A stretch of DNA of 64,000 bases from Arenibacter nanhaiticus (GTDB lineage: Bacteria > Bacteroidota > Bacteroidia > Flavobacteriales > Flavobacteriaceae): contig NZ_FQYX01000006.1 of NCBI RefSeq assembly GCF_900141935.1, positions 1 to 64,000 on the forward strand, given 5' to 3'. The notes under the pieces are model-generated. The model did not search any database and was not told where the DNA came from. It saw only the letters and a program-made list of their open reading frames with translations. Below, one piece after another: positions 14,859 through 31,182 of this stretch. A program made the translations under genes and the position numbers. The stretch's first letter is position 1. Every line of letters begins with the position of its first letter.

Positions 14859-15095
14859 TTAAAAGGACACCTCAGATTCTTTATAGTCCGTTAATGCATG
14901 AAGGGTATGTTTAATTCTCATCAATTCTTTTTTAACCTTTTCTAAGGTAAAAGGATGGTTATAGCGTATGGATATAGTTTTATTTTCCACACTGATATCG
15001 AGAATTCGTAAATCTAAAATTCTACTTAGATTTCTAACTATAATACGTTTGCATTGCTCCGAATTAAGATCCGGTACTTGAATTAATGTTTTCAT
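14859..15095 (-). CDS. small HMA-like protein lacking the metal-binding CxxC
   Basis: The 78-residue protein has a ferredoxin-like alternation (MKTLIQVPDLN, RILDLRILDISVEN, ISIRYNHP) like a heavy-metal-associated domain. At the position where copper chaperones carry CxxC there is only a single Cys (SEQCKRI), so metal transfer of the usual kind is unlikely. Such degenerate HMA proteins occur beside stress genes in Bacteroidota, but I do not know their role. The start at 15095 is 57 bp from the Fnr-like palindrome. The candidate reverse-strand -7 element at 15122-15129 (TATTTTTA on that strand) is centred 33 bp from the palindrome centre. Confidence 0.7.
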   Translation of the reverse strand: MKTLIQVPDLNSEQCKRIIVRNLSRILDLRILDISVENKTISIRYNHPFTLEKVKKELMRIKHTLHALTDYKESEVSF

Positions 15096-15151
15096 TACAG
15101 TAAGATTTTGGGTTTAATTCTTAAAAATAACCACTCAATTGTAGATAGTAA

Positions 15152-15165
15152 ATGATATATATCAT
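15152..15165. promoter_or_regulatory. Fnr/Crp-like operator, perfect palindrome ATGATATATATCAT
   Basis: This 14-bp perfect palindrome has the form TGAT-N4-ATCA (centre 15158.5) in the divergent gap between the HMA-like gene and the ROK gene. An imperfect forward -7 element (TTGCTTTG, 15188-15195) and a reverse one (15122-15129) are both centred 33 bp away. That geometry is close to a class II activator site overlapping the -35/-41 region. Confidence 0.6.
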
Positions 15166-15247
15166 AACAAAGGGGGCGAAATTTACGTTGCTTTGTAATA
15201 ACGCATTCATTTATGAAGGATATCATAGTTGTTTTATTCCCAAAGCG

Positions 15248-16210
15248 ATGAAAAAAATAGTATTGGCCATAGATATTGGAGGTACTAATACCAAAATAGG
15301 GTTGGTAACCAAGGAAGGTAGGATTCTAGGGGTAAAGGTGTTCGAGACCCGAGCAAAATTGCCCTATAAAAACTTTATGCAAAAGCTCGAAGAAAAAGTG
15401 AATATGTTGCTCAATGAGCACAATGCTTTTTTTAGGATAGAGGCGATTGGGGTAGGAGCACCTAATGTTAATATCCTTACCGGAAACATGGAAAACCCAC
15501 CTAATTTAAATTGGGGAACTTCGGTTCCTTTGACGAAATCAATAGAAGAAATATGGAAATTCCCCACCATAGTGGCTAATGATGCCAATGCCGCCGCGAT
15601 AGGAGAAATGACCTTTGGAATGGCCCAAGGAATGAAAAACTTCGTGATGTTGACCCTTGGGACCGGATTGGGGAGCGGTATAGTGATCAATGGACAATTA
15701 TTGACAGGGGAACACGGTCTGGCTGGAGAATTGGGACATACCAAAGTAGATCCCTATGGCCGACAATGTAATTGCGGCTTAAGAGGATGCTTGGAAAATT
15801 ATGTTTCCGTAACAGGGATTAAGCGGACCGTTTTTGAACTTATTTCTGAAATGACGGAAGACTCCCCTCTAAAAAAATTAAGCTTTGATGACCTAAAAGG
15901 AGAAATGATTGCCGAGGCAGCCTTAAATGGAGATCCTATTGCCATAAAAGCTTTTGAACTGACCGGTGAAATTTTGGGAAGTAAATTGGCCGATTCCGTC
16001 GCACATCTAGATCCAGAGGCTATTATCTTGGCAGGTGGATTGGGAAACGCCGGAGATATTCTTTTAAATCCGACGGTGGCAAGTATGGAAAAAAACCTGT
16101 TTACGGCTTACAAAGGAAAAATAAAAGTCCTTATTTCTAAGGAGCCAAGTGCCAATTCCATTTTGGGGCCAGCAGCACTAGCCATTAATAATCTCACCTA
16201 CTCTTCATAG
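15248..16210 (+). CDS. ROK family sugar kinase (glucokinase-like)
   Basis: The open frame extends back to 15152, but the ATG at 15248 starts the conserved MKKIVLAIDIGGTNTKIG phosphate-1 motif. The 15152 region is occupied by the operator palindrome. The 320-residue product shows the ROK signature around GELGHTKVDP and the zinc motif CNCGLRGCLE, with GTGLGSGIVINGQ before it. ROK kinases with the CxCGxxGC motif phosphorylate glucose, fructose or N-acetyl sugars, and the exact substrate cannot be told. Its 3' end overlaps that of the convergent cbpM by 13 bp. It is placed in the stress island rather than with the galactose genes. Confidence 0.9.
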   Translation: MKKIVLAIDIGGTNTKIGLVTKEGRILGVKVFETRAKLPYKNFMQKLEEKVNMLLNEHNAFFRIEAIGVGAPNVNILTGNMENPPNLNWGTSVPLTKSIEEIWKFPTIVANDANAAAIGEMTFGMAQGMKNFVMLTLGTGLGSGIVINGQLLTGEHGLAGELGHTKVDPYGRQCNCGLRGCLENYVSVTGIKRTVFELISEMTEDSPLKKLSFDDLKGEMIAEAALNGDPIAIKAFELTGEILGSKLADSVAHLDPEAIILAGGLGNAGDILLNPTVASMEKNLFTAYKGKIKVLISKEPSANSILGPAALAINNLTYSS

Positions 16211-16491
16211 AGATCTAATTTGTTTTTTAGGAAAGTAATCTCATCTTGCATTTTTTCGATACGATCTAACAAATGATTGATTACTGCTATCCCCTCTAAA
16301 TTGATCTCTAAATCCGAATATAACCTAAGAATCTTTTCGGTCCTTGGTAATTGCTGAAGTGGTATGTATCTTGTTTTTTCCCTAGAAACCAACTCTATCA
16401 GTCCATAATCATGTAGTTCCAATATAAATTTTGAAGAAATATTATGGCTTATACAGAAATCGGTAATCGCTATATAGTGTTCGTTTCCCAT
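16198..16491 (-). CDS. cbpM: CbpM-like chaperone modulator (MerR-type fold)
   Basis: The 97-residue protein starts 2 bp after the stop of the CbpA-like gene. It has the MerR-like N-terminal helices (ITDFCISHNISSKFILELHDYG) and a C-terminal coiled coil (LLDRIEKMQDEITFLKNKLD) typical of CbpM. In Escherichia coli CbpM binds the J-domain of CbpA and inhibits it. The role here is inferred from sequence pattern and gene order. The short length rules out a full DNA-binding MerR regulator with an effector domain. Confidence 0.85.
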   Translation of the reverse strand: MGNEHYIAITDFCISHNISSKFILELHDYGLIELVSREKTRYIPLQQLPRTEKILRLYSDLEINLEGIAVINHLLDRIEKMQDEITFLKNKLDLYEE

Positions 16492-16493
16492 GA

Positions 16494-17393
16494 TTAGGTT
16501 TGTTTTTTAAGGGTTGCCAATTCTTTAAACAGCTCTTTCTCCTTTGGGCTTAGGTTTGTTGGAACTATAATATTATAGGTAATATATAAATCCCCGAACT
16601 GCCCTTCTTTTTTGTACACAGGAAAGCCTTTGCCCTTAAGTTTTACTTTAGTTCCGTTCTGAGTCTCTGGTTTTACTTTTAGTTTAACTTGACCTTCAAA
16701 GGAGTCTACAGTAATATCTCCTCCTAAAACGGCCTTGTAAAGATCTAAATTTACCGTGGTATACAGATTGTTGCCGTCTCTTTTAAACGGCGTATCGTTT
16801 ATGATAGTGAAACTAATGTAAAGATCCCCATTGGGTCCGCCTTGTTGTCCTGGCCCTCCATGGCCACTTATCTTAATAGTCTGCCCATTTTCTATTCCTG
16901 CCGGTATGTTGAGCCGGATTTTTTTATCGTTGATGGTCAAAGTTCGCTTATGGGACGTATAGACATCCCTAATATGCAATTGTAAGGAGGCATTTAGGTC
17001 TTGCCCTCTAAATTTTACTCTTCCCCTGCCACCAAAATTTTGGGAACCCCCAAACATAGATTCGAAAAAATCCGAAAAATCCTGTGCACTATAACCTTGT
17101 GATGATCCAGAACTCTGCGGACCATAACTGTATTGTCTGGATTTTTTGGCTTTTTCAAACTCTTCGGCATGTTGCCAGTCCTTACCGTATTGGTCGTATT
17201 TTTTACGGTTTTCAGGATTGCTCAACACCATATGAGCTTCATTGATTTCTTTAAACTTTTTCTCGGCTTCCTTATTGTTGGGGTTTATATCGGGATGATA
17301 TTTTCGGGCCAATTTTCTGTAAGCTTTTTTAATATCGCTTTGGCTGGCACCTTTATCTAAATCAAGAACCTTGTAATAGTCTATAAATTCCAC
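16494..17393 (-). CDS. cbpA: CbpA-like DnaJ family co-chaperone
   Basis: The 299-residue protein has a J-domain at 1-70 with the HPD motif at 33-35, a Gly/Ser/Phe-rich linker (about 85-120, including [10 protein letters not shown]), and two C-terminal substrate-binding beta domains. It lacks the DnaJ zinc-finger cysteines, which identifies the CbpA class. It stimulates the DnaK ATPase and delivers misfolded proteins. It is followed by cbpM and preceded on the same strand, 118 bp upstream, by the coiled-coil gene at 17512-17934, which carries an Fnr-like site at its promoter. The three genes may form one stress-induced transcript. Confidence 0.93.
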
Positions 17394-17511
17394 CTTGTTG
17401 ATATTTATAATTCAATAATAGATTGAGTGTATTGTTAAGCTACTATTTCTTCTGCGGTTTAAACAATATTGAAATTCTGTAATGGGTAAATAGGCTTCAG
17501 AGGATACGATC

Positions 17512-17934
17512 TTATGTTGTTTTAAAATTTAAAAGGGTAGGGGCGGTAATTTTGAAGATGTCCTTTTTTGCTAGTTTGAAAGCCTCCGTAATATCATACA
17601 TCGTTTTTTTTAACTTTAATTGTTTTTTGATTATTTCCAATGCCGTTTCTTTTGGAGCAAAATAGGGGATGCAGGCGAGCTCAAATTTTCGATACTCAAT
17701 CTTTTGGATGAGCTTGTCACATTTAATTCTTAGGGACTCAAAGCGGATTAAAACTTGCCTGACATCGTCCAAATTTTCATTTTCTGAACTATTGGAAAAA
17801 TACCGGTCCAATAAAAGTTGTAAAACAATAAGTTCTTCCTTGTGTTGGGTTAAATCGGACATCCAATCATCTAAAGTGGTGTAAATTAAGGATATATTTA
17901 AGGGTTGTTTGTTGGTTGCTTGAAATGAATCCAT
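17512..17934 (-). CDS. uncharacterised coiled-coil protein of the stress island (copy 1)
   Basis: The 140-residue soluble, strongly helical protein has no signal peptide. The N-terminal segment LIYTTLDDWMSDLTQHKEEL is followed by LLLDRYF, a variable Asn/Glu-rich loop, then long helices. The same pattern (LY-x3-T-x2-W-x-S-x-L, an acidic residue, LL-x2-Y, a loop, and a late FK-x2-K-x2-IF) appears in the protein at 30760-31182. The two are probably paralogues bracketing the island. The promoter region carries an Fnr-like palindrome (17985-17998) with a reverse-strand -7-like TAAATTTA at 17955-17962, 33 bp from its centre. I do not recognise a named family. Confidence 0.75.
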   Translation of the reverse strand: MDSFQATNKQPLNISLIYTTLDDWMSDLTQHKEELIVLQLLLDRYFSNSSENENLDDVRQVLIRFESLRIKCDKLIQKIEYRKFELACIPYFAPKETALEIIKKQLKLKKTMYDITEAFKLAKKDIFKITAPTLLNFKTT

Positions 17935-17984
17935 AATGATGTTGTTTATTTTTATAAATTTAAGGAGCCCTTTTTGGTCGCGAC

Positions 17985-17998
17985 ATGATTTAAATCAT
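17985..17998. promoter_or_regulatory. Fnr/Crp-like operator, perfect palindrome ATGATTTAAATCAT
   Basis: This 14-bp perfect palindrome (TGAT-N4-ATCA, centre 17991.5) lies in the divergent gap between the coiled-coil gene (start 17934) and the sensor kinase (start 18114). The best -7 match, TAAATTTA on the reverse strand at 17955-17962, is centred exactly 33 bp away. No good -7 was found at that spacing towards the kinase. Confidence 0.65.
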
Positions 17999-18113
17999 TT
18001 CGACTTATAGGAAACAGCTTTTTAACGGCAGAAAATCGATATTTCATCAGCTCCTATTTTAAAGAACACGAAAATGAAACCTTAAGGGCGTTAATATTAA
18101 AGCAGCTCGGATA

Positions 18114-19352
18114 ATGAAGACTTTTGAAGAGAACAAGTCGTTTTTTCTACTGCTTACCCAAGCAGTATCTCAAGGAATTGTAATAATAAATAAAGAAGGT
18201 ATTATTATAGCTGCTAGCGAACGGACCCATGCCATGTTTGGATATTCGGAAGATGAGGTAATAGGAATGCCGATAGAAGGGTTAATAGTTGACCGGGATA
18301 AACAATCTTGTAGTATTGCGGTAAAAGCCGTGTTTAATAAAATAGAGAACATCAACATTATTTCTAGTACGTCATTAATAGGACAACGGAAAAATAAAGC
18401 GCAACTGCCTTTAGAAATAGTTTTCTTTAGGTTCCAAGATCAAGGACTAAAATACGTTTTAGCCCTGTTTAAGGACATGACGGTTCTAAAAAACAAAGAT
18501 GTTGAAATACATGAACTGCACAGTCAATTAGAATTAAAAATAAAGGAACGCACAAGGGAGCTTCGCGACACTGTGGCTATTCTTAAAAAAGAAATGAAGC
18601 GAAGGGAGAAGGCCGAAGCCCAGTTGGCCTTAACACTTCAGAAGGAAAGGGAATTAAATGAGTTAAAGACAAAATTCCTTTCCTTGGTTTCCCATGAGTT
18701 TAAAACCCCATTAGGAGGTATTCTTACCTCTGCGACCTTGGTAGGGAAGTATAAAACAACCTTAGACCAAGAGATTAGGGATAAGCATCTATTTAAAATT
18801 ATTGGTGCGGTACGGCACCTTAATTCTATTTTAGACGATTTCCTCTCTGTAGAACGACTGGAAAAAGGGAAAGAGGTTTACCGTAAAACAAATTTTTCCC
18901 TAAGCAAAATTGTCAATGATGTCATTTATAATGCGAATATGCTTTTAAAGAGTGGGCAACGCATTAATTATCCGGCAAATATAGATGAAGTTATCATTCG
19001 GCAGGATGAGAAAATTGTATCTTTAGCATTAACCAACTTGTTGCACAATGCTATTAAATATTCTCCCGAAGATATGGAGATAGATGTACAAGTAGTATTG
19101 TGCAAAGAAAAAGTCATTTTTCACATAATTGATAGGGGGATAGGAATTCCTTTAAAGGATCAAAAACATATTTTCGAAAGATATTTTAGAGCAGAGAATG
19201 TTTTGTTAACCCAAGGTACTGGTATTGGCCTAAACATCGTAAAAACGCATATAGAAAACTTAGGTGGTAAAATATATTTTAGTAGTGAACCTGAAAAAGG
19301 AAGTACCTTTTCCTTAGAGTTCCCCCTCATAGCGCAAATACCTAAAAATTGA
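18114..19352 (+). CDS. PAS-domain sensor histidine kinase
   Basis: The 412-residue protein has no evident membrane helix, so it should be cytoplasmic. An N-terminal PAS domain (about 10-130, with a GYSEDEVIGMPIEGL core) is followed by a coiled coil (ELHSQLELKIKERTRELRD). The HisKA domain has phospho-acceptor His 194 in SLVSHEFKTPLGG. The HATPase domain has N box NLLHNAIKYSP and G boxes DRGIGIP and GTGIGLNIV. No haem or flavin ligand can be assigned in the PAS domain by eye. It is followed after 49 bp by the REC-Crp regulator, its obvious partner, and the pair heads the universal stress protein array. Confidence 0.93.
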   Translation: MKTFEENKSFFLLLTQAVSQGIVIINKEGIIIAASERTHAMFGYSEDEVIGMPIEGLIVDRDKQSCSIAVKAVFNKIENINIISSTSLIGQRKNKAQLPLEIVFFRFQDQGLKYVLALFKDMTVLKNKDVEIHELHSQLELKIKERTRELRDTVAILKKEMKRREKAEAQLALTLQKERELNELKTKFLSLVSHEFKTPLGGILTSATLVGKYKTTLDQEIRDKHLFKIIGAVRHLNSILDDFLSVERLEKGKEVYRKTNFSLSKIVNDVIYNANMLLKSGQRINYPANIDEVIIRQDEKIVSLALTNLLHNAIKYSPEDMEIDVQVVLCKEKVIFHIIDRGIGIPLKDQKHIFERYFRAENVLLTQGTGIGLNIVKTHIENLGGKIYFSSEPEKGSTFSLEFPLIAQIPKN

Positions 19353-19401
19353 AATGAAAGTGGGAAAAGGTACTTTTTAAATCTTTCAAAAAAATCAGTA
19401 T

Positions 19402-20448
19402 ATGAGCAAAATATTAATTATTGAAGATGATCCGTTATTACGCGAAAACACTGCAGAATTATTAGGGTTGTCTGGTTATGAGGTGCTTACGGCCGAAAAT
19501 GGTCAAAAGGGGGTGAAGACTGCAAAAGAACTGTTGCCAGATTTGATAATTTGTGATATTATGATGCCGGTATTGGATGGTTATGGGGTTTTAAAGGCAC
19601 TTTCTAAGGAAGAAACCACCAGATTAATCCCTTTTGTTTTTATGTCGGCAAAAACAGAAAATAAGGATGTCAGAAAAGGGATGGCCTTGGGCGCCGATGA
19701 TTATTTGACCAAACCTTTTGAGGAAGCAGACCTCCTTGGGGCCATTGAGAGCAGGTTGGCAAAAATAGCTATCTTAAAAGAAAGAAATGCCTTGTCCTTG
19801 ACAGTAGGGGACGTTTTTCAAATTGCGACGATCGATGATTTAAAATGTCATATTAAAAACAAAGGAAAATCTTATGATTTTAAAATAGGAGAGTACGTAT
19901 ATAAGGAAGGTGATCATGTAAATATGGTGTTTATTATAATAAGGGGTGTCGTTAAAACCCATAGATTAGATGAACAAGGAAAGGAATTGATTACCGGGGT
20001 GTATAAGGAGGGCGACTTTTTTGGGTTTGGTTCCTTTGGCAATACACCCTTTTACGCAGAATCAGCAGCCCCCTTAGAGCATACAACCTTGGTGGGATTA
20101 AGGAATGAAGAATTTCGGAATATATTACAACAAAACAGTCTTCTTTCTTATGAATTAATGAAGCTTTTGGCGGTAAACCTTTCAGAAACCAAAACGCAAC
20201 TCTTGGAAATGGCATATGGATCGGTTCGTAAAAAAACGGCCAGGACCATTCTAAAATTTGCCGAAAAACTAGAGACCGATGCGGAAGGGTGTATTCATAT
20301 CTTACGAACTGATCTGGCAAGTGTGGCTGGAATGGCCACGGAAACATTGATAAGAACCCTCTCGAGCTTTAAAAAAGAAGGTCTAATAGAAATAAAAGAT
20401 AGAAATATTAAGGTAATCGATATTGAAAAGTTGAAAAAAATTCAATAA
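19402..20448 (+). CDS. response regulator with REC and Crp/Fnr-type output domains
   Basis: The 348-residue protein fuses three modules. A receiver domain (1-120) has acidic pocket EDD near residue 8, phospho-acceptor Asp 52 in ICDIMMP, and the KP pair in YLTKPFEEAD. A cyclic-nucleotide-binding-like beta-barrel follows (about 150-265). The C-terminal Crp-type helix-turn-helix has recognition segment AGMATETLIRTLSSFKKEG. It keeps the Glu and Arg (ETLIR) that contact TGA half-sites in Crp/Fnr proteins. The N-terminal cysteines of iron-sulfur Fnr are absent, so the signal should come by phosphorylation from the adjacent kinase. The TGAY-N4-ATCA palindromes around it are its likely targets; this is inference. 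Confidence 0.92.
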   Translation: MSKILIIEDDPLLRENTAELLGLSGYEVLTAENGQKGVKTAKELLPDLIICDIMMPVLDGYGVLKALSKEETTRLIPFVFMSAKTENKDVRKGMALGADDYLTKPFEEADLLGAIESRLAKIAILKERNALSLTVGDVFQIATIDDLKCHIKNKGKSYDFKIGEYVYKEGDHVNMVFIIIRGVVKTHRLDEQGKELITGVYKEGDFFGFGSFGNTPFYAESAAPLEHTTLVGLRNEEFRNILQQNSLLSYELMKLLAVNLSETKTQLLEMAYGSVRKKTARTILKFAEKLETDAEGCIHILRTDLASVAGMATETLIRTLSSFKKEGLIEIKDRNIKVIDIEKLKKIQ

Positions 20449-20477
20449 TTTGGGTGTTTGGGTTTGCTTAAGATAGT

Positions 20478-20521
20478 ATGACAATAATCATTTACTAAGC
20501 GCGGATTCTCAAGTATTTTTA
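20478..20521 (+). promoter_or_regulatory. Fnr-like operator (ATGACAATAATCAT) plus -7 element for the first usp gene
   Basis: The palindrome at 20478-20491 has one half-site deviation (TGAC-N4-ATCA, centre 20484.5). A TATTTTTA -7-like element at 20514-20521 is centred 33 bp downstream, and the usp ATG is at 20549. The arrangement is the same as at 15152, 17985 and 21886. Confidence 0.55.
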
Positions 20522-20548
20522 GGGAAATAAGTTGTAATCCTTTATGAT

Positions 20549-21388
20549 ATGAGGCAAATCTTAATTCCAACCGATTTTTCCAACAACTCTTGGAATGCCA
20601 TTACTTATGGACTACAATTTTTCAAGAAATCTAGATGTACTTTTTACCTATTGCACATCATTCCCATATTCTCTTTTTCAGAATCCTTAAATGAATCAGC
20701 GAATTCGTCGGCCGATCTACAGGAACAATTGTTGATTGAAAAACAGGCAGAACTACAAAAAGTGATTGATAAGATTGAAAAAAAATTCCTGAATCCAAAG
20801 CACCGTTTTATAGGTGTTGCAGTATATGATTTTTTTATAGATGCTATCCGGAAACAAGTACTGGATAAACAAATAGATATGATCATCATGGGAACCAAAG
20901 GAGCTTCCGGATTAAAAAAAGTAGCTATAGGGAGTAACACCGGAGATGTCATTACGAAAGTAAAATGTCCCTTATTGGCCATACCTGAAAACTCCCAGTA
21001 TATAAGACCAAAGGAAATAGCGTTCCCTACAGATTTTCAAATGGGGTTCGATTTAAAAGTATTGTATACACTTTTAGAAATAGCCGGTAGATACAAGGCT
21101 ATTATCAGAGTATTGTACATTTCTAAAAAGAAAGAAAGCCTAAGTTTGGAACAAACTAAAAACAAAGATTTTCTGCATGATTACTTTTCAGATCTGGAAC
21201 ATACTTTTCATTTTGTTACCGGAAATAAAATGGAAACCGCTATACAGAGTTTTACAGAGCGCAATGAGATCGATATGATTGCCATGGTTGCGAAAAATTT
21301 AAATTATTTTCAACGTATTTTATTCAAACCGGAAGTAGAAGAAATAAGTTACCATACAAAAATCCCGTTTTTAGTTTTACACGAGTAA
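20549..21388 (+). CDS. universal stress protein, tandem UspA domains (copy 1)
   Basis: The 279-residue protein contains two UspA folds. The first starts with MRQILIPTDFSNNSWNA and ends with the ATP-binding pattern G-2x-G-9x-G-S (MGTKGASG...IGSNT, about 111-127). The second (from KEIAFPTDF, about 153) lacks that loop, so nucleotide binding should be confined to domain 1. UspA proteins are cytoplasmic stress-survival factors of diverse function. It follows the REC-Crp regulator by 100 bp, with an Fnr-like site between them, and is convergent with trxA. Confidence 0.93.
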   Translation: MRQILIPTDFSNNSWNAITYGLQFFKKSRCTFYLLHIIPIFSFSESLNESANSSADLQEQLLIEKQAELQKVIDKIEKKFLNPKHRFIGVAVYDFFIDAIRKQVLDKQIDMIIMGTKGASGLKKVAIGSNTGDVITKVKCPLLAIPENSQYIRPKEIAFPTDFQMGFDLKVLYTLLEIAGRYKAIIRVLYISKKKESLSLEQTKNKDFLHDYFSDLEHTFHFVTGNKMETAIQSFTERNEIDMIAMVAKNLNYFQRILFKPEVEEISYHTKIPFLVLHE

Positions 21389-21430
21389 TTAACACCTTTT
21401 GCCTTCATTATAAAAACCATCTTTTTGATG

Positions 21431-21730
21431 TTATCCTCTGGATTGTATCGTACTAATTAAGGCCGCTTTTTGTACTATTCCAGATTCTCGCCACACCTGT
21501 TGTCCATTTTTAAATAAAATCATCGTGGGTACTCCACGCACGTTATATTTACTGGCTAATTCCTGGTTTTTATCTACATCTATTTTAATGATTTTTACGC
21601 CATCGCCAAGTTCTTCTTTTACTTGTTTAAGGATGGGAGCCAAAGATTTACACGGTCCGCACCACTCTGCAAAAAAATCTATTAAAACAGGACTGTCCGA
21701 GTTTAAAAGTTCATTAAAGCTAGTTTTCAT
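21431..21730 (-). CDS. trxA: thioredoxin
   Basis: The 99-residue single-domain thioredoxin has the active site AEWCGPCKS (Cys 24 and 27), the cis-proline loop GVPTMILF, and no signal peptide, so it is cytoplasmic. It supplies reducing equivalents to reductases such as MsrA and is recycled by TrxB, encoded at 31603. It is transcribed opposite to the flanking usp genes. The Fnr-like site at 21886 is about 156 bp upstream. The -7 position expected on this strand is a poor match, so control by that site is doubtful. Confidence 0.95.
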
Positions 21731-21885
21731 GTTTTGTAAGATTTATTATGGTTACACCTACTTATAGTACGTTTCTAAAAGGAGTATAGCTTATATGGTC
21801 CTTTTAATTGTTGGAAATTTTTTGAAACAGCCCAAAAGCATATTTCTTTAAACCTTATAAGTATTCAAATATACCATTTTTTAAC

Positions 21886-21929
21886 CTGATTGATATCATG
21901 TTTATTTACATTATGGAAGCTTAAATTTG
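21886..21929 (+). promoter_or_regulatory. Fnr-like operator (CTGATTGATATCAT) plus exact -7 element for usp copies 2-3
   Basis: The TGAT-N4-ATCA site lies at 21886-21899 (centre 21892.5). TAAATTTG at 21922-21929 matches TAnnTTTG exactly and is centred 33 bp downstream; the ATG is at 21956. With transcription starting just after the -7 element, the operator would sit near -40, the class II activator position of Crp/Fnr proteins. Confidence 0.65.
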
Positions 21930-21955: not shown

Positions 21956-22801
21956 ATGAGAAAAGTTTTGATTCCAACAGATTTTTCCGACAATGCTTTT
22001 AACGCATTAAAATACGCCTGTCAAATTTTTAAATACGAAACCAGTGAATTTTATATTATGCATGCTTATGCGGACGAAGTGTATAATCAGAACATTGACA
22101 CGGATCGCAGTTTGTTGGAGGTGAAAAAAGAAGAGTGCTTTCAGGAATCTGAGATAAAACTTAAAAATATTCTGGTTGAGATTAAAAAATACTCCCCAAA
22201 TCCAAATCACACTTATTTTACGCTTTCCAAATTTGGTTCGTTGATAGATGAAACAAACGACTTGGTGAACGAGCACAATATGGATATTGTCGTCATGGGA
22301 ACCAAAGGAAAAACCAATGACCGGCATCTTACCTTTGGTAGCCATACCCTGCAGGTATTGAAGTACATACAGAGTCCTGTTTTGGCCATTCCCGAAAATT
22401 ACGAATACAAAGCACCTAAAGAAATACTTTTTCCTACCAATTATTTAGTGCCAAACAAACGTAGGGAGCTTAAATTATTATGTGAGATAACGGCCTCCTT
22501 CAGGTCATCGATACATGTATTGTATATAGATCCCATAAAAAAATTGACACTGCGGCAGGAAGACAATTTAGAGTTTATTAAAAACTCTCTAAAAAAGGCA
22601 AAAATTATCACGGCCACTAGCCCAGAGAAAGACAAGGCCAAAGCCATTACCAATTTTATATCCGCACATCAGATAGATATGTTGGTGATGGTAAATACAA
22701 GACATTCCTACTTAGAAGATATGTTGTACCAATCTACCATAGATAAAATTGGTCTGTATATAAAGATCCCTTTTCTGATTTTTCAAAACCTTGCTCGTTA
22801 A
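21956..22801 (+). CDS. universal stress protein, tandem UspA domains (copy 2)
   Basis: The 281-residue protein has the same plan as its neighbours. It starts MRKVLIPTDFSDNAFNALKY. The nucleotide-binding pattern in domain 1 (MGTKG...FGSHT, about 110-125) keeps the nine-residue spacing but has a more polar, less typical loop (KTNDRHLTF). Domain 2 lacks the loop. It lies directly downstream of an Fnr-like site with an exact -7 element, and usp copy 3 begins 20 bp after its stop, so the two form an operon. Confidence 0.92.
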   Translation: MRKVLIPTDFSDNAFNALKYACQIFKYETSEFYIMHAYADEVYNQNIDTDRSLLEVKKEECFQESEIKLKNILVEIKKYSPNPNHTYFTLSKFGSLIDETNDLVNEHNMDIVVMGTKGKTNDRHLTFGSHTLQVLKYIQSPVLAIPENYEYKAPKEILFPTNYLVPNKRRELKLLCEITASFRSSIHVLYIDPIKKLTLRQEDNLEFIKNSLKKAKIITATSPEKDKAKAITNFISAHQIDMLVMVNTRHSYLEDMLYQSTIDKIGLYIKIPFLIFQNLAR

Positions 22802-29316: not shown

Positions 29317-30702
29317 ATGCAAACTGTAAAACTTCATTTCTTAGGTGCCTCGGGCACTGTAACAGGATCTAAATACTACCTAGAAACATCTGAATGTAAT
29401 ATCATGATCGATTGTGGGATGTTTCAAGGATTAAAGGAATTGCGTGAACTGAATTGGAAGCCGCTGCCTATAGATGCTTCAAACATAGATATAGTGCTGC
29501 TAACCCATGGGCATTTTGATCATATCGGGTATTTGCCAAGATTGTTAAAAGAGGGGTATAATGGTAAAATAATAGGAACCGAACCTACCTTGGCCATTAC
29601 AGAAATTGTATTATTGGATAGTGCTAAGATTCAGGAAGAAGCAGCAGAAAGGGATAACGAGGATGCCTTAAGTGTACATCAACCCGCACTGCCTTTTTAT
29701 AGCATAGAAGAGGCCGCGGTGACGTGTAAAAAATTTCAGGCTGAAAAAAGGGATATTTGGCATTCCCTATCTACAAATATAAAGTTCAGGTATCGTTATA
29801 ACGCTCATATATTGGGGGCCACCTTTATTGAAATGGAGGTCTTTGGGAAACAGTTTGTGTTTTCCGGAGATATCGGACGGCCGCTAGATTATTTATTAGA
29901 TGCTCCAGAGCGCCCCCGTTGGGCAGATTATATATTGTTGGAAAGTACCTATGGCAACAAATTACATCCCAAAGAAAATGTAGAGGAAGCCTTAACAGCA
30001 CTGGTCAATAAAACTATTCTGGAAAAAGGAACTTTAATAATACCCTCCTTTGCCGTAGAACGCCTTCAATCTTTAATGTATATTTTTTGGAAACTTTACA
30101 AAAAAAACAAAATTGCCGATATCCCTATATTTATAGATAGTCCAATGGGAAACAATGTACTGTCGGTTTTCGAGGCTTTTCCGAAATGGCACAAACTAAG
30201 CCATGTAGAATACCTTGCCATGAGAGATCATTTTAATATTGTAACTTCCTATCGAGAGACCTGGGAGACCATTGACGATCCTAGGCCAAAAGTGGTAATA
30301 GCAGGTAGCGGGATGGTTACCGGAGGAAGGGTGTTAGCCTATCTCCAACAACTTGTAGATCTAACGACAACCACGGTATTATTGGTAGGGTACCAGGCCG
30401 AAGGTACAAGAGGAAGACAACTACTAGAAGGTGCCCATGAACTAAAGCTCTTTGGGAAGTACTATCCGGTTAAAGCTAAGATCGAACATTTTGAAAGCCT
30501 CTCTGCTCATGCCGATCAGGAAGAATTGCTACATTGGCTAAAGGATATTAAAAATATTCCGGAAATGGTTTTTTTGGTTCATGGAGAACCCTTGGCATTA
30601 GATGCGTTTAGGGTGAAAATAAAAGATAGTTTGGGATGGCTGGTCAAGGTGCCAAAACTTTATGAAACGGTTGAAATATTAATTGACGCAAAAACTGATT
30701 AA
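29317..30702 (+). CDS. MBL-fold/beta-CASP hydrolase with RNA-specificity domain
   Basis: The 461-residue protein has the metallo-beta-lactamase zinc motif LTHGHFDHIGYLPRL (HxHxDH, near residue 65) and a beta-CASP insert. The later motifs are the Glu of LLESTYGNKLH, AGSGMVTGGR, and the RMMBL domain (FESLSAHADQEELLHWL, then VHGEPLALDAF). These are the features of CPSF-like RNA-processing nucleases. Bacterial members near stress genes have not been widely characterised, and this protein may be an exo- or endoribonuclease. The gene stands alone 280 bp after the usp gene and 57 bp before the coiled-coil gene, with which it may be co-transcribed. Confidence 0.9.
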   Translation: MQTVKLHFLGASGTVTGSKYYLETSECNIMIDCGMFQGLKELRELNWKPLPIDASNIDIVLLTHGHFDHIGYLPRLLKEGYNGKIIGTEPTLAITEIVLLDSAKIQEEAAERDNEDALSVHQPALPFYSIEEAAVTCKKFQAEKRDIWHSLSTNIKFRYRYNAHILGATFIEMEVFGKQFVFSGDIGRPLDYLLDAPERPRWADYILLESTYGNKLHPKENVEEALTALVNKTILEKGTLIIPSFAVERLQSLMYIFWKLYKKNKIADIPIFIDSPMGNNVLSVFEAFPKWHKLSHVEYLAMRDHFNIVTSYRETWETIDDPRPKVVIAGSGMVTGGRVLAYLQQLVDLTTTTVLLVGYQAEGTRGRQLLEGAHELKLFGKYYPVKAKIEHFESLSAHADQEELLHWLKDIKNIPEMVFLVHGEPLALDAFRVKIKDSLGWLVKVPKLYETVEILIDAKTD

Positions 30703-30759
30703 TATCATAGCATTGGGGCATTCTGTACGATAGATTTGTGGTCAATTAAGGGATCAAAG

Positions 30760-31182
30760 ATGAAAAAGAGCTTTAATATAACAGATCAGAATAAAAAACT
30801 GGAGGTATTATACCGCGACACCCAAAAATGGAAATCAAATCTGAAATTTTTGGAAGATGAGGCGCAGTTTATTACCCAACTATTAAATTCTTATGTGTTT
30901 GAGCCCAATACACCCAACCTGTTTGAACGATTGCAGGGCTATGGGAGTCGAATGACAACTGTGTCCCAACAAAAGAATGTTCTAAACGAACAGATAGCGA
31001 ACCATGAAAAAAGCTTGGGAGGCATGTTGGAATGTAAGGACGAAACCTGTGATTTTACCTATTATAATAAACATGAAGAACTGCAAAAAGAGGTAGACCG
31101 TTGTTTAAATGGTTTTAAGGAAGTTAAAGCCGAAATTTTTAATTACGCAGGGGGAATTTTAAAGAACCGAAAAGAAAATTGA
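30760..31182 (+). CDS. uncharacterised coiled-coil protein of the stress island (copy 2)
   Basis: The frame is open from 30736, but the ATG at 30760 (MKKSFNITDQNKK) is the better start. The product is 140 residues, highly helical and without a signal peptide. LYRDTQKWKSNLKFLEDE, then LLNSYVF, a loop, and FKEVKAEIF near the end parallel the protein at 17512-17934, which also has 140 residues. Two Cys (LECKDETCDF) are unique to this copy. The function is unknown. Its place after the beta-CASP hydrolase marks the right edge of the stress island. Confidence 0.75.
   Translation: MKKSFNITDQNKKLEVLYRDTQKWKSNLKFLEDEAQFITQLLNSYVFEPNTPNLFERLQGYGSRMTTVSQQKNVLNEQIANHEKSLGGMLECKDETCDFTYYNKHEELQKEVDRCLNGFKEVKAEIFNYAGGILKNRKEN

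Follow-up and report, generated by a model that had tools for sequence, protein, structure and literature searches.

A fixed spacing between a palindrome and the -7 box across Flavobacteriaceae points to low-oxygen and stress promoters probably served both by a receiver-Crp fusion and by an Fnr-like protein

The first 64,000 nucleotides (nt) of contig NZ_FQYX01000006.1 of Arenibacter nanhaiticus (assembly GCF_900141935.1; this whole stretch is called the window here) contain a gene for a regulator that joins a receiver to a Crp-type DNA-binding domain (REC-Crp), and five copies of a 12-nt palindrome, TGAY-N4-RTCA, each with a match to the Bacteroidota -7 box, TAnnTTTR, exactly 23 nt off on one side. 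This combination of palindrome, 23-nt gap and box, called a fixed-gap site in what follows, is enriched in the genome of A. nanhaiticus and is found throughout the family Flavobacteriaceae, where it co-occurs with REC-Crp and with an Fnr-like protein carrying four conserved cysteines. We propose, with a probability of roughly three in four, that fixed-gap sites mark class II promoters of low-oxygen and stress genes at which these two kinds of activator would use common sites.

A preliminary description of the window, made from its sequence alone, had listed four intergenic palindromes with a fixed centre-to-centre spacing of 33 bp to a -7 element. All four are present and intergenic, the 12-mers beginning at 15153, 17986, 20479 and 21887, and each has a perfect box at gap 23; the additional box proposed at 15188 has one mismatch. 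When the five palindromes were scanned in both orientations at gaps of 0-60 nt, six perfect boxes appeared, five of them at gap 23 and the other at gap 13. The fifth site overlaps the final 7 nt of the open reading frame (ORF) 29317-30702. The features concerned are:

15153..15164, unstranded: palindrome TGATATATATCA, also present in L001, a relative too close to be informative
15122..15129, minus strand: -7 box TATTTTTA at gap 23; its counterpart in L001 is TATTTTTG
14859..15095, minus strand: ORF for a 78-aa product, HMA-like according to the preliminary description, beginning 26 nt past the box
15188..15195, plus strand: weak -7 box TTGCTTTG facing the ROK gene
17986..17997, unstranded: palindrome TGATTTAAATCA, 117-128 nt ahead of the kinase gene, with its box facing away from the kinase
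17955..17962, minus strand: -7 box TAAATTTA at gap 23
17512..17934, minus strand: gene for a 140-aa protein, coiled-coil according to the preliminary description and without a Pfam match, 20 nt past the box
18114..19352, plus strand: PAS histidine kinase gene (PAS_9, HisKA, HATPase_c)
19402..20448, plus strand: REC-Crp regulator gene (Response_reg, PF00072; cNMP_binding, PF00027; HTH_Crp_2, PF13545)
20479..20490, plus strand: palindrome TGACAATAATCA, 3' of the REC-Crp gene
20514..20521, plus strand: -7 box TATTTTTA at gap 23
20549..21388, plus strand: universal stress protein (usp) gene, Pfam Usp
21887..21898, plus strand: palindrome TGATTGATATCA, matching the pattern
21922..21929, plus strand: -7 box TAAATTTG at gap 23
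21956..22801, plus strand: second usp gene, called Usp from the start of its sequence
30696..30707, plus strand: fifth palindrome TGATTAATATCA, matching the pattern and absent from the preliminary list
30731..30738, plus strand: -7 box TAGATTTG at gap 23
30760..31182, plus strand: gene for a 140-aa protein, 21 nt past the box

The genome-wide scan suggested in the preliminary description was done with the palindrome pattern TGAYNNNNRTCA, which occurs 228 times in the 4.36-Mb genome of A. nanhaiticus. Box matches at gaps of 9-37 nt amounted to 51, with 30 at gap 23 and the remaining 21 spread over 28 other gaps, or 0.75 per gap (Poisson P ~3e-37). Gap 23 counted alone gave 31, one match having been masked by a shorter overlapping match, and the reversed pattern, used as control, gave 0. 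Given this excess and the empty control, a frequency equal to that in shuffled sequence, named beforehand as the outcome that would speak against the idea, is therefore not what was found for the spacing. The same gap stood out in 60 named REC-Crp loci (L001-L060) with 50-96% identity to the window protein, where 224 matches, from 59 of the 60 loci, fall on gap 23 and each other gap has 2.36 on average, and in 20 more distant loci (L061-L080), with 13 matches against 0.64. Boxes with one mismatch also peak at gap 23 (99 vs 15.1 per other gap). In L001-L060, gap 23 did not stand out for inner spacings of N3, N5 and N6 or for two control palindromes (0, 0, 0, 0 and 1 matches). A T outside the pattern directly follows the palindrome in 217 of the 224 boxed sites, as against 235 of 542 oriented palindromes without a box, and in 201 non-redundant sites C (54%) and A (36%) predominate at the base just before the palindrome. 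By mechanical ORF calling, 5 of the 31 fixed-gap sites in the stretches fetched from the A. nanhaiticus genome lie inside an ORF of at least 100 aa, four of them in long start-codon extensions or at gene ends and the fifth being C28:59521. Arenibacter sp. 6A1 is closely related, with 93% DNA identity over 7.3 kb and a regulator that is 96% identical.

Across 149 Flavobacteriaceae genomes, one per genus, 2301 fixed-gap sites were counted, compared with 82 for the reversed pattern; at least one match was present in 139 genomes, where one or two can be chance. REC-Crp was called in 77 genomes (78 were matched, and G002, with a receiver-only match, was dropped). Of 133 genomes in which the Fnr search gave a match, 99 have a close ortholog (E <= 1e-50). 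The median number of sites was 25 in the 47 genomes with both regulators, 14.5 in the 30 with REC-Crp only (range 6-37), 9 in the 52 with Fnr only (range 2-31) and 0.5 in the 20 with neither (range 0-10, ten at zero). Many genomes of the last group are small; yet G032, G057, G067 and G138, of 3.0-5.0 Mb, have zero sites. Outside the family, there are 3 to 11 matches in three genomes from a different family of this order, 0 to 17 in other families of the class, and mostly 0 to 2, with 8 as the highest value, in the rest of the phylum; over the phylum, 123 of 247 genomes have any match.

Five HTH_Crp_2 proteins above the Pfam cut-off are encoded in the A. nanhaiticus genome (G000): two REC-Crp proteins, one in the window and one on contig C27, the Fnr-like protein of contig C31, and a further two. 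The C27 REC-Crp is also paired with a PAS kinase (G000:C27:57889-60461), within a larger cluster of fixed-gap sites, and the gene of the Fnr-like protein (G000:C31:51632-52318) is itself preceded by a fixed-gap site, 23 nt from its start. From its domains, a cNMP-binding-like domain and a Crp-type helix-turn-helix, the window protein can be assigned to the CRP/FNR family, and its receiver, with Asp52 and Lys104 present in 80 of 80 relatives, makes it a response regulator, predicted to be phosphorylated. The Glu and Arg pointed out earlier in its recognition helix are kept as part of an E-x-x-I-R motif, whose E, I and R are invariant in the 80 REC-Crp sequences and in the 30 closest Fnr sequences (L100-L129); the Ile stands where E. 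coli FNR has Ser212. In those 30 orthologs Cys 4, 7, 53 and 106 are also invariant, and REC-Crp has none of the four. Their spacing differs from that in E. coli FNR, and they may hold an unusual cluster.

The genes behind the sites were read in two genomes with REC-Crp only (G115, 20 sites; G021, 15) and in three with Fnr only (G045, 10; G036, 12; G056, 12). A site precedes hemN, named from sequence (Pfam gives Radical_SAM), and a fused cbb3 oxidase gene in all five, whichever the regulator. Pfam scans covered 34 proteins of the REC group, leaving out one duplicate, and 31 of the Fnr group, leaving out two short doubtful ORFs and one site without an ORF. Usp domains were found in 5 of the former and 4 of the latter, and COX1/FixO proteins in both groups; pyruvate:ferredoxin oxidoreductase, pyruvate phosphate dikinase and NadA were found among REC-group targets, and pyruvate formate lyase, phosphotransacetylase and an S30AE ribosome protein among those of the Fnr group. 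Sites in the A. nanhaiticus genome precede a hemN-like gene, the cbb3 cluster, the Fnr gene, genes for a P-type ATPase, MlaE and PfkB, and several usp genes, the cbb3 and usp identifications being made partly by eye. Of the 60 REC-Crp loci, 47 have a fixed-gap promoter at most 400 nt behind REC-Crp. Such a promoter serves usp homologs in 43 of 58 loci (20549..21388 as query) and 47 of 58 (21956..22801 as query), which agrees with usp genes as targets, the best matches of different queries being possibly one gene. Homologs of 17512..17934 have such a promoter in both loci with a homolog, and those of 30760..31182 in 2 of 8; the figures are 2 of 13 for DnaJ, 0 of 9 for cbpM and 2 of 28 for thioredoxin. 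The inclusion of cbpA/cbpM among the targets is weak and would hold only if these genes are co-transcribed with 17512-17934. As for the ROK gene, a similarly weak candidate, its box is mismatched and neither of the two ROK homologs in the 60 loci has a perfect box, and what speaks for it is the enrichment of one-mismatch boxes at gap 23.

Taken together, these data are best read as a single low-oxygen and stress promoter set with, probably, two interchangeable activators. The genes served would be mostly for life under low oxygen and stress (cbb3 oxidase, hemN, usp, pyruvate metabolism), with oxygen as the presumed signal; REC-Crp, beside its PAS kinase, and the four-cysteine Fnr-like protein would use the sites through their common helix; and across the family the promoter set would persist, with REC-Crp, Fnr or both as the activator in a given genome. 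We lean, somewhat beyond even odds, towards a kinase-driven REC-Crp that replaces or joins the cysteine-bearing Fnr at the same boxes, so that the input of the response would be rewired with the promoters unchanged. The preliminary proposal of a REC-Crp regulon stands as regards REC-Crp as a regulator, and genome-wide, since each of the 30 genomes with REC-Crp and no close Fnr ortholog has at least six sites; its exclusive assignment to the window REC-Crp does not, because the Fnr-like protein goes with these sites too, and C27 carries another REC-Crp with its own PAS kinase. Those 30 genomes also speak against the possibility that the sites belong exclusively to the Fnr-like protein or to a different Crp paralog, and that REC-Crp, although adjacent to some of them, controls something else. 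This would fit the presence of at least two sites in 52 of 52 Fnr-only genomes, and the site before the Fnr gene itself, but we consider it improbable, as the same hemN and cbb3 genes lie behind sites in the two REC-Crp-only genomes read, and the paralogs read there (two in G115, one in G021, with one further Crp match of G115 and two of G021 outside this reading) have R-type helices (TRPTLN, SRVVVS) and relatives in the site-free genomes G138 and G067. A division of labor by half-site, TGAC boxes for Fnr and TGAT for REC-Crp, was suggested by the A. nanhaiticus genome and rejected in the 82 single-regulator genomes, where C/C, T/T and mixed half-sites number 113, 181 and 205 of 499 with REC-Crp only and 112, 204 and 250 of 566 with Fnr only (Fisher P for C/C 0.26).

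Several observations weigh against two activators at common sites. By the cut-offs used, G112 has neither regulator and 10 sites (control 3), R-type helices being found in three of its nine Crp matches that were read, and G146 has neither regulator and 4 sites (control 1). Some genomes classed as REC-Crp only have further Crp paralogs that could bind: one in G105 has an ESLVR helix, and G029, G059, G085 and G089 have a more distant Fnr-like protein (E 1e-32 to 1e-38). Regulators were assigned by co-occurrence, ignoring kinship among genomes, and the absence of a regulator can be false because at most 14 REC-Crp and 19 Fnr candidates were scored per genome. Finally, the window kinase lacks FixL-type heme residues.

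The geometry of the sites argues for activation. Class II promoters under E. coli CRP or FNR have the palindrome centred at -41.5, next to the sigma-bound box; the FNR-type half-site is TGAT or TGAC, and the recognition helix contains Glu and Arg. The sigma-A box of Flavobacterium psychrophilum, TAnnTTTG, occupies -12 to -5 (PMC9723704). The centre of this box (-8.5) and that of the palindrome upstream are 33 bp apart, so that transfer of the box position would place the palindrome at -41.5. In five other genomes, 68 sites have a median distance of 26 nt from box to start codon, the distance being 10-60 nt in 47 of them. By this analogy the fixed distance and the centre near -41.5 qualify the sites as putative class II Crp/Fnr promoters, in support of the class II-like geometry put forward previously for the Bacteroidota promoter. 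The palindromes would be bound by Crp/Fnr-family activators on otherwise ordinary Bacteroidota sigma-A promoters, the promoter-side half-site and the nearly invariant next T (TCAT, ending at -35) would replace the -33 element, with direct contact between the bound activator and RNA polymerase. Since the palindrome covers the expected -33 element, the bound protein might instead block RNA polymerase, and Crp/Fnr proteins are known to repress from such positions. We regard repression as quite unlikely, given that a fixed distance to the -7 box is expected of an activator and unnecessary for a repressor, and that the cbb3 oxidase of F. psychrophilum is strongly induced at low oxygen, the regulator responsible not being named there (PMC9723704). 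An accident of AT-rich intergenic sequence has a negligible chance of explaining the site set: lone -7 boxes do carry little weight, as cautioned from the start (TANNTTTR is found at 0.16% of oriented positions in the A. nanhaiticus stretches), but gap 23 alone is enriched, with reversed-pattern and altered-palindrome controls near zero. Single sites can still be chance, as may be the case of C28:59521, which has no gene behind it.

With respect to the kinase, FixL-type heme sensing was considered and rejected for the window protein, whose sequence lacks the PAS His and Arg of FixL, and also as a general trait, the His/Arg pattern being present in 8 of 78 neighboring kinases; by eye, the pattern can be seen in the first PAS domain of the kinase on C27. 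Of 58 loci (among L001-L060), 42 carry a palindrome no more than 350 nt upstream of the kinase. The idea that the regulator activates its own kinase operon was discarded, as the fixed-gap box faces the kinase in one locus and away from it in 32, which hints at a divergent promoter or at repression of the kinase.

Neither class II activation by Crp/Fnr proteins nor the -7 box of Bacteroidota is new in itself. The sites described here resemble those of E. coli CRP and FNR in the -41.5 centre, the FNR-type half-site and the Glu and Arg of the helix, and differ in the TAnnTTTR promoter and in that one activator is a receiver fusion. In the rhizobial FixLJ-FixK cascade, a histidine kinase provides the input, the box is of the FixK/FNR type, and cbb3 oxidase and hemN are targets; these elements recur here, with receiver and Crp in one protein and without a separate FixJ-FixK step. 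HcpR/HcpR2 of Bacteroides and Porphyromonas likewise belong to the Crp/Fnr family in Bacteroidota. HcpR2 has the predicted box GTAAC-N4-GTTAC and hcp as target (PMC1274295), unlike the TGAY-N4-RTCA box found here; no hcp gene was recognized among the targets read (25 of 54 Pfam families listed), and the sites are not assigned to an HcpR2 regulon. A Crp/Fnr protein from a Flavobacteriales genome of an anammox reactor, of the same order and linked to oxygen cycling, was grouped near MalR and scanned with the Bacteroides MalR matrix, and the accessible portion of that account names neither a receiver fusion nor a -7 spacing (PMC8510549). No earlier description of the combination, one spacing family-wide that is common to a receiver-Crp fusion and Fnr, was found in searches of the open-licence literature. 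Activated promoters have been little described in Bacteroidota, whose core promoter is unlike that of E. coli, and the concrete rule TGAY-N4-RTCAT-N22-TAnnTTTR, with two likely regulators named, predicts regulated promoters family-wide. The exchange of regulators at constant promoters would constitute a natural experiment, and the rule points to candidate promoters behind the low-oxygen induction of the cbb3 oxidase reported for a fish pathogen (PMC9723704).

Some minor observations can be added. In L061-L080, 20 box matches were found at gap 45, compared with 0.64 per gap; this is unexplained and possibly reflects a repeat. Neither an 84-aa C27 protein resembling the 14859..15095 product nor the small protein at C27:42090 has a Pfam match. 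The latter is one of several proteins of 128-144 aa, with similar W/E/L-rich starts and a coiled-coil look by eye, that recur in site clusters (window 17512-17934 and 30760-31182; G000:C27:42090-42476, 70002-70415 and 70640-71074), and two small proteins behind G115 sites look alike.

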